Below, piece after piece: positions 36,952 through 63,953 of a stretch of DNA of 64,000 bases. Source of the DNA: Gammaproteobacteria bacterium (GTDB taxonomy: Bacteria > Pseudomonadota > Gammaproteobacteria > S012-40); contig JAOUMY010000001.1 in NCBI GenBank assembly GCA_029881255.1, positions 992,001 to 1,056,000 of the forward strand. The letters run 5' to 3'. The stretch's first letter is position 1; each line of letters opens with the position of its first letter. A model generated the notes under the pieces. That model was given only the letters and a program-made list of their open reading frames with translations. It made no database searches and was not told the origin of the DNA. The position numbers and the translations under genes were made by a program.

Positions 36952-37827
36952 GTGTCTATGTTTGTAATTTCCGGAATGGACTATGCTTTCTGCTACAACA
37001 TCGAAAACTACACGTGTGTGGAAATGCAATATTCAGGGGAAAGCATCTTATTTCGGGGTAGGGACGCATTCGGAGAACTGGTCGTAACTGAAGGGGCGTT
37101 AGTGAGAACGCTTTACTTTGGAAATGAAAAGCGTCAAAGCGCCATGTTTCTTCAGCACGCGGGCTTGCTTGTGCTTGAATATACCCAGGTGATGATGTTG
37201 TCACTTATTTTTAATCGCCAACCGCATCGAGTTTTTTGTCTTGGCCTGGGTGGTGGATCGATACCTAAATTTTTACTTAGAGCCTGTCATGTTTCGCAAG
37301 TCGATGTGGTCGAGTTGAGACAGGCCGTAATTCAAGTTGCATATCGATTTTTCGATGTGCCGGAAAATAGTTCACGCCTGAACATTGAGTGTGCAGACGG
37401 GGCTAGCTACTTTGATGGCGTTGCTCAACACAAATCATACGACCTTATGTTTATTGATGGCTTTGATCGAGATGGGCCAGTGGATGCGGTGTCCAATATT
37501 CCTTATCTTGCGAAGTGCGCAAGCCACTTATCGGCAAATGGGATACTGTGTATCAATCTCTGGAATCGTCGAAAAGACGATTTTCAACAACGATTAAAAG
37601 AGATTCGAGCTCTCTTCGATGGTGGGGTGTTGCTGTACCAATTGGGTAAACTAAATAGTAATGTTGTTTTATTCTGCTTTCGGAACCGCAGCCAGGCCTT
37701 GCAAATTAAACGTTATGAGCATGCTTCCAGGCAACTGCAAAGAGAATTTGGTATCAACTTTCGAAAGTATTTTTCCCGGCTGTATAAACAGAACGTGCCG
37801 ATGTATCAGCGCCTTATGCGTGCATAA
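36952..37827 (+). CDS. Spermidine synthase-like methyltransferase-fold protein
   Basis: The product (up to 291 residues) has a class I Rossmann fold of the polyamine synthase type: RVFCLGLGGGSIPKFLL, QVDVVELRQAV, and YDLMFIDGFDRDGPVD. It lacks the usual N-terminal catalytic loop of true spermidine synthases, and the family is often annotated only as spermidine synthase-like. The ATG at 36952 abuts the iscU terminator; ATG 37024 gives a start closer to homologues and is more plausible. Its substrate is unknown. Confidence 0.75.
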   Translation: MSMFVISGMDYAFCYNIENYTCVEMQYSGESILFRGRDAFGELVVTEGALVRTLYFGNEKRQSAMFLQHAGLLVLEYTQVMMLSLIFNRQPHRVFCLGLGGGSIPKFLLRACHVSQVDVVELRQAVIQVAYRFFDVPENSSRLNIECADGASYFDGVAQHKSYDLMFIDGFDRDGPVDAVSNIPYLAKCASHLSANGILCINLWNRRKDDFQQRLKEIRALFDGGVLLYQLGKLNSNVVLFCFRNRSQALQIKRYEHASRQLQREFGINFRKYFSRLYKQNVPMYQRLMRA

Positions 37828-62982: not shown

Positions 62983-63253
62983 GCTGAGTGTGGTCTAGAC
63001 GCTTGGCGTTTTGATTTATGTGACTGCGTCAGGCATTGTGGCGGGGCTTTTCGCAAAACTCGCTGTGAATCCTTTCCAGCTTCGCTGAAAAGTCCAGGGC
63101 ACACATCCGTGTGTGCCCGTTCGTTTCGGGAACACCGAAACTCACCCCTGTACGCTCGACGGCCGCGTCCATGCGGCCGTCGGTTTTGCGAAAAGCCCCG
63201 CCACAACACCCTCCTTGCACATCAAAACGCCAAGCGTCTAGACCACACTCAGC
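62983..63253 (-). repeat. Large fold-back repeat element, copy 1
   Basis: The outer arms (62983-63015 and 63221-63253) are a perfect 33-bp inverted repeat. Inner arms (63036-63059 and 63183-63206) are a perfect 24-bp inverted repeat. The centre holds three more hairpins: 63097-63118 (9 bp), 63123-63141 (7 bp), and 63157-63182 (10 bp, CGACGGCCGC / GCGGCCGTCG). The core (CGGCCGCATGGACGCGGCC) and terminal TTCACAGCG on the minus strand are shared with copy 2, which faces the other way. Frames here (MDAAVE-type) are structure artefacts, not genes. Confidence 0.9.
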
Positions 63254-63386
63254 TATTTGGGTGGACGAATTATTTTCTACTAGGTTTCTATGCGGCTTGC
63301 CTGTTCAAACTGGAACTTCTTGTTTCAATTAAACCAAACAATTTTGTTGGTGTTGAGAATGTTTTTCCAAAGCCACCACCTAGCTA

Positions 63387-63586
63387 GCATTGTGACTGAG
63401 GCGTGGGTAGTAAATTGGCGGTGCAAGGAGGGTATTGAGGGCGTTTGTCTTGCAAAACCGTCGGCCGCATGGACGCGGCCGTCGAGCTCCCATGGATGGG
63501 TTCACAGCGTGTTTTGCAAGACAAACGCCCTCAATATCCGACGCCGTACCAAAGACAATTTACTACCCACGCCTCAGTCACAATGC
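63387..63586 (+). repeat. Large fold-back repeat element, copy 2
   Basis: The outer arms (63387-63417 and 63556-63586) are a perfect 31-bp inverted repeat. Inner arms (63433-63458 and 63511-63536) are a perfect 26-bp inverted repeat. The core (63459-63510) has CGGCCGC-atggac-GCGGCCG, a short CCCAT-gg-ATGGG hairpin and TTCACAGCG. The arms share no sequence with copy 1, but the core and the spacer GTGCAAGGAGGGT (63421-63433) do. The 133 bp between the copies contain no recognisable feature. Confidence 0.9.
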
Positions 63587-63611
63587 GACAACCCCGCCCT
63601 AAAACTAAAAG

Positions 63612-63628
63612 TCAGAAAAACTCAAAAC
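63612..63628 (+). repeat. 17-bp direct repeat flanking ycgL, left copy
   Basis: TCAGAAAAACTCAAAAC occurs here, overlapping the ycgL stop, and again at 63937-63953 just upstream of its start. Both copies have the same orientation. Confidence 0.7.
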
Positions 63629-63918: not shown

Positions 63919-63936
63919 ATCACCTCACTTACTAAC

Positions 63937-63953
63937 TCAGAAAAACTCAAAAC
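63937..63953 (+). repeat. 17-bp direct repeat flanking ycgL, right copy
   Basis: This is the second copy of TCAGAAAAACTCAAAAC, in the region upstream of the ycgL start. The remaining bases to 64000 show no further gene that I can support. Confidence 0.7.

Follow-up and report, generated by a model that had tools for sequence, protein, structure and literature searches.

Two large fold-back elements near the end of a 64,000-nt stretch of gammaproteobacterial DNA (the window) are members of a dispersed family that we consider best explained, with a probability of roughly 55%, as an element that moves, or once moved, and whose transcript offers CsrA/RsmA two binding sites. Both the transcription of the element and the binding of CsrA are inferred in this explanation. 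The evidence for it comes from the structure of the elements, their occurrence across genomes, the near invariance of their hairpin loops, a strand-specific pattern of change in their stems and the upkeep of the element at one orthologous site.

Structure of the two window elements

The pair lies between two convergent genes which, from reading their translations, we take to be rsmI on the plus strand and a ycgL-like gene on the minus strand. Both copies have in common the core CGGCCGCATGGACGCGGCC, the spacer GTGCAAGGAGGGT and the end TTCACAGCG, and the best reading strand, termed here the AYGGAY strand, is minus for copy 1 and plus for copy 2. The earlier note had described two modular fold-backs in opposite orientation with these shared parts, and the element and repeat lengths it gave were confirmed. 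The parts are as follows:

62983-63253, minus strand: copy 1, whole fold-back element, 271 nt (covariance model R1 match G000:C1:1055048-1055194:-)
62983-63015, minus strand: copy 1 outer arm, left, perfect with 63221-63253 (33 bp)
63221-63253, minus strand: copy 1 outer arm, right
63036-63059, minus strand: copy 1 inner arm, left, perfect with 63183-63206 (24 bp)
63183-63206, minus strand: copy 1 inner arm, right
63157-63182, minus strand: copy 1 hairpin 1, loop AUGGAC (CANGGANG class)
63097-63118, minus strand: copy 1 second GGA hairpin, GGGCACAC-ACGGAU-GUGUGCCC, in an enlarged loop with extra hairpins
63061-63069, minus strand: copy 1 core end, conserved TTCACAGCG
63208-63220, minus strand: copy 1 unpaired spacer GTGCAAGGAGGGT, containing a further GGA
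63387-63586, plus strand: copy 2, whole fold-back element, 200 nt (R1 match, 115.4 bits)
63387-63417, plus strand: copy 2 outer arm, left, perfect with 63556-63586 (31 bp)
63556-63586, plus strand: copy 2 outer arm, right
63433-63458, plus strand: copy 2 inner arm, left, perfect with 63511-63536 (26 bp)
63511-63536, plus strand: copy 2 inner arm, right
63459-63484, plus strand: copy 2 hairpin 1, loop AUGGAC at 63469-63474
63489-63500, plus strand: copy 2 hairpin 2, CCC-AUGGAU-GGG
63501-63509, plus strand: copy 2 core end, conserved TTCACAGCG
63421-63433, plus strand: copy 2 spacer GTGCAAGGAGGGT, containing a further GGA

The inner repeat of copy 2 extends to 29 bp at 97% identity. Read along the AYGGAY strand, the order of parts is an inner arm ending in AAAAC, hairpin 1 (CGGCCGC-AUGGAC-GCGGCCG), GAGC, hairpin 2, TTCACAGCG, one base, GTTTT and the complementary arm. 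Folded as RNA, the two copies reach -142 and -185 kcal/mol, with z-scores of -16.5 and -19.2 against 200 dinucleotide shuffles; the fold-back structure of both is far beyond chance.

Two further features were seen in the neighbourhood. A 20-nt direct repeat (95%), AASTCAGAAAAACTCAAAAC, flanks the ycgL-like gene at window positions 63609-63628 and 63934-63953. Downstream of this gene, about 30 nt past the window end, begins a bacterial class A RNase P RNA (345 bits; G000:C1:1056032-1056374, equivalent to L003 2372-2714).

Copies in the host genome and across the Gammaproteobacteria

Exact matches to the 19-nt core number 11 in the host genome, rising to 14 when up to three mismatches are allowed, the weakest of which probably reflects chance. 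Covariance model R1, built from 13 host copies, recovered 20 copies in the same genome, and 13 of the 20 fall into six clusters, each with a minus copy first and a plus copy last. All 37 pairs are formed in every one of the 13 aligned copies, the arms are locus-specific, and stem changes among these copies are two-sided in 122 cases and one-sided in 2. An outer stem with a GTGCAAGGAGGG-like spacer was found in three host copies only, the two in the window and one at C3:151547. Host copies sit close behind stop codons.

Two regularities of the host genome proved not to be general. The host pattern, in which the AYGGAY strand is complementary to the strand read by the gene, gave 30 versus 28 over 127 copies, and the minus-then-plus arrangement of all six host clusters is not followed in Methylotuvimicrobium buryatense, in which neighbouring copies are tandem, convergent and divergent. 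These mixed orientations leave a shared divergent promoter unsupported in general. About ten tandem copies of CGAATCCA lie between the divergent host elements at G000:C4:36918-37019 and 37266-37367 (L008/L012). Hairpin 1 is expanded to several hairpins in some copies (L115, L119, L121, L161, L195; L030 and L031 in the host), and certain of these variants carry further GGA loops and a recurrent TTGCTCCTGCAA hairpin.

R1 matches were obtained in at least 71 of 369 gammaproteobacterial genomes (63 of 272 genera; 10 candidates scored per genome), and a phylum-wide draw yielded 28 genomes with a match, all of them Gammaproteobacteria. Genera with matches include Marinobacter, Rheinheimera, Methylotuvimicrobium, Yersinia, Pectobacterium, Shewanella, Stenotrophomonas, Xanthomonas, Sodalis and others. 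Core matches, which retrieve mainly the type-1 form, number 457 in M. buryatense 5G and 135 in Methylomicrobium sp. wino1. Escherichia coli represents a near absence, with the element in 5 of 5426 genomes and in accessory DNA, and a consensus-core search of plasmid and phage collections returned no match. Copies of the family are dispersed, multi-copy and mostly intergenic, and their placement by gene class in M. buryatense shows no enrichment at 3' ends.

The earlier note had suspected a dispersed gammaproteobacterial family and had proposed a covariance-model search of the host and its relatives, and the 20 host copies together with the matches across the class bear this suspicion out. Its own grounds for rejection do not apply: the core is not confined to the window, and an assembly artefact is ruled out by independent occurrence of the element in many genomes. 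The presence or absence of copies at orthologous sites, which it had also asked about, could be followed at Marinobacter homologues, not at the window copies, and both filled and empty states were seen there.

Hairpin loops and the CsrA recognition element

The copies analysed for hairpin 1 were found by a pattern lying outside it. Loop and closing pair together read CANGGANG in 53 of 53 pattern-derived hexaloop copies; along the eight letters C-A-N-G-G-A-N-G, variation occurs only at the two N positions, and C, A, GGA and G are invariant. Of 127 hairpin-1 loops, 119 contain GGA. Hairpin 2 formed part of the search pattern, and its GGA is not independent evidence family-wide. Within one Marinobacter site (gap A, below), all four bases are seen at its N position, and its CA, GGA and G are constant.

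The commonest hairpin 2 is GTACAGGGATGT, and judged by its letters alone this second hairpin (GUACAGGGAUGU) equals the CsrA SELEX consensus, RUACARGGAUGU, in which six-nt loops are closed by AC/GU pairs (PMC7652899). One CsrA dimer can bridge sites separated by 10-63 nt (PMC7652899), and the two GGA motifs of the element are approximately 20 nt apart. The element has the features expected of a CsrA ligand, CANGGANG in hairpin loops and at least two sites. Counting against the CsrA reading, hairpin-1 stems are 7-10 bp, longer than those of most SELEX ligands, which have 4 or fewer contiguous stem pairs (PMC7652899). The host genome encodes one CsrA, and co-occurrence was uninformative as a correlate since CsrA is present in all 29 genomes tested. 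Gardner and Eldai had already predicted CsrA binding of the TwoAYGGAY RNA from motif matching (PMC4333381); the present analysis adds to that work the constraint on the loops across many genera, the selection on one strand, the connection with YPAL and the copy numbers.

Strand-specific selection on the stems

Non-Watson-Crick arm pairs in 127 non-redundant copies, scored on the AYGGAY strand, comprise 60 G.U against 11 A.C (p=3e-9) and 27 purine-purine against 7 pyrimidine-pyrimidine (p=8e-4). The AYGGAY strand is favoured whichever way the gene runs, with G.U:A.C ratios of 10:3 for antisense and 12:1 for sense copies, and 57 M. buryatense copies, which share ancestry, gave 55 G.U against 6 A.C. 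These counts come from related sequences that are not fully independent, and kinship inflates them. Pure arm copying in DNA, or a generic palindrome, would be expected to produce G.T and A.C equally, and the excess observed therefore indicates selection for folding of the AYGGAY strand, either as RNA or, possibly, as single-stranded DNA. Change in the stems probably also involves arm-to-arm copying of DNA.

One orthologous site in Marinobacter

In a Marinobacter operon, three of the intergenic gaps contain elements. At gap A, the 83 species that could be classed comprise 30 with the type-1 element, 8 with another subfamily, 8 with remnants (coreless hairpins, scars or other) and 37 that are empty. 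Filled and other states change 9 times on the tree, compared with 27 for shuffled labels, which indicates that copies are long-lived at this site. Across 25 type-1 species, 642 of 675 arm pairs are Watson-Crick, and the 33 exceptions include 30 G.U and 1 A.C on the AYGGAY strand. Parsimony assigned 89 two-sided changes that kept the pairing and 23 one-sided changes; the tree was built from short flanks and the counts are approximate. The two-sided changes consist of 36 transitions and 53 transversions, and since transversions cannot pass through a G.U intermediate, one-step arm copying or recombination must contribute. No clustering of adjacent two-sided changes, as multi-base template switches would give, was found at this gap. 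Because the AYGGAY strand of this site runs antisense to the operon, the RNA reading requires an antisense transcript.

A second subfamily occupies the same site (L308, L310, L311, L317, L328, L332, L342), with the core CGCTCCTTCGGCAC...CATCCATG...CCATCCATGG and extra hairpins. Long hairpins without the two-hairpin core are present at site A (L293, L337) and at site B (L272), where other species have the full element; these represent either loss of the core or a precursor state.

Proposed mechanism and alternative explanations

An RNA from the AYGGAY strand would form a long stem topped by two hairpins whose hexaloops present the CsrA/RsmA recognition element CANGGANG, and one CsrA dimer could clamp both at the spacing given above. 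In copy 1, the second hairpin would lie further off, inside the enlarged loop. Such a transcript might arise from read-through of a convergent gene, antisense transcription or a nearby promoter, none of which has been shown. Once bound to CsrA, it could serve as one of many scattered sponges, could tether CsrA locally on antisense or read-through RNA, or could do both. Tens to hundreds of copies could titrate CsrA, and the role of the long stem would be to shield the RNA or to fix its geometry. Copies would have spread as non-autonomous mobile elements and then persisted at fixed sites, with stems that drift yet stay paired through selection on the AYGGAY RNA fold and probably through arm copying during replication. 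Mobility itself is indicated by the copy number, the filled and empty sites and the different subfamilies at one site. The means of mobility, like any effect on genes, is inferred.

Several of these observations would also suit a plain MITE-like mobile element without a regulatory role, whose loops in single-stranded DNA are the contacts of a transposase acting in trans (compare REP/RAYT). Very high copy numbers such as the 457 core matches of M. buryatense, one site found filled, coreless, scarred and empty, and the independent occupation of one site by different subfamilies are all in keeping with it, and the published description of YPAL is of an insertion sequence whose target duplications vary (PMC2229807). 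Strand-specific recognition of single-stranded DNA would also yield strand-specific selection. We nevertheless consider this explanation unlikely, as compensatory upkeep of one old copy in 25 species is hard to explain without a local function. A further point against it is that G.T pairs in DNA are weaker than G.U pairs in RNA. A dedicated transposase has not been identified, the plasmid and phage collections lack the consensus core, and M. buryatense shows no clear replication-strand bias (30:46, p=0.08, a figure not relied on).

Wobble selection that tracks the AYGGAY strand in either gene direction, and a favoured strand that is antisense at the Marinobacter site, are difficult to reconcile with a stem that works within the mRNA of the gene upstream, whether as a 3'-end or intercistronic stabiliser or as an RNase III substrate. 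This role has been proposed for YPAL, and De Gregorio 2006, as cited in PMC2229807, links YPAL to transcript stability; the host copies close behind stop codons and those between the Marinobacter operon genes agree with it. The lack of 3'-end enrichment in M. buryatense does not, and we regard the proposal as rather improbable. Template switching between arms in DNA (quasipalindrome correction), with no selection on RNA, would explain why the host copies show almost no one-sided changes and why most two-sided changes at gap A are transversions. It predicts neither invariant loops nor an excess of G.U over A.C on one strand, and this asymmetry argues against it as the sole cause; we judge it very improbable in that form. 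One observation against the reading of a mobile element with a CsrA-binding AYGGAY transcript is that Ysr224, a family of Yersinia sRNAs in Rfam, matches the opposite strand at YPAL loci.

Implications

We suggest tentatively, at somewhat less than even odds, that a repeat of transposable type has carried RNAs able to bind CsrA/RsmA in bidentate fashion into gammaproteobacterial genomes, in tens to hundreds of copies each, and that these form a distributed, locus-anchored layer of sponges or antisense tethers within the Csr network, one that standard RNA annotation misses. If so, a Yersinia MITE and an orphan RNA motif, two little-known annotations so far unconnected, would belong to a single family found across the class and having an identified protein partner. 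Estimates of CsrA titration in many bacteria would then need revision, as each genome could hold hundreds of sites in competition with CsrB/RsmZ. Confirmed CsrA binding would connect a poorly known "junk" repeat with a major regulatory system. The element would then also provide a testable case of a mobile element bearing a ready-made post-transcriptional regulatory module, and one site in 25 species would offer a natural experiment on the evolution of long palindromes.

Relationship to known families

The element belongs with Yersinia YPAL/RU-2, a published miniature insertion sequence, and shares the architecture of the TwoAYGGAY RNA. The earlier note could not name the family and recognised no REP or MITE in it. 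The element sequences lack the short single GTAG-tagged hairpin of REPs (GTAG, RAYT-linked), and the statement on MITEs overlooked YPAL. Delihas 2007 (PMC2759123) gives a Y. pestis RU-2/YPAL sequence with the same core as the host copies, core-pattern loci of Y. similis match it nearly letter for letter, and the superfamily's core sequence and its order of hairpin 1, TCGAGC, hairpin 2, TTYACNGCG are shared. With regard to target duplications (3-26 bp in YPAL), we found a repeated ACATTGG-like string at one site, possibly a conserved element end.

TwoAYGGAY (RF01731) was reported by Weinberg 2010 (PMC2864571); the available portion of that report gives human gut, gammaproteobacteria and Clostridiales as sources and does not present the motif as a dispersed repeat. 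The elements have its features, two AYGGAY-type hairpin loops on a long stem. In the literature searched, TwoAYGGAY and YPAL are nowhere mentioned together. Rfam models miss most copies: a scan of the window found no family at gathering threshold, RF01731 included, the best host copy scored 42.8 bits against RF01731 (gathering 43) with no score for other copies, and only three of 13 element-bearing loci had the element reported, all as Ysr224. Weak matches to mir-14 and mir-629 were rejected as plain long hairpins.

YPAL/RU-2 (about 168 bp) resembles the element in its two-GGA-hairpin core followed by TTYACGGCG, its long internal inverted repeats, and its dispersed, intergenic placement with insertion polymorphism (PMC2229807, PMC2759123). 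It has been described in Yersinia and Erwinia. Unlike YPAL/RU-2, the elements of the window genome have arms that differ from locus to locus instead of one conserved sequence, with an additional outer stem in three copies. The likeness to TwoAYGGAY is a variable outer stem closing two AYGGAY-loop hairpins. Ysr224 (RF02770) spans the YPAL sequence in Yersinia, Sodalis and Pectobacterium loci, but models the complementary strand and, in the loci tested, reaches threshold only in enterobacterial forms. REP/BIME and CGTC-tagged REPs are likewise dispersed intergenic palindromes with opposite-orientation dimers, whereas REPs are one short hairpin with a conserved stem and lack a two-hairpin core on a long stem. 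The sponge RNAs CsrB, RsmY and RsmZ share several GGA-in-loop hairpins fitting the CsrA consensus; they are single dedicated sRNA genes, whereas the element carries two sites per copy in tens to hundreds of copies per genome.
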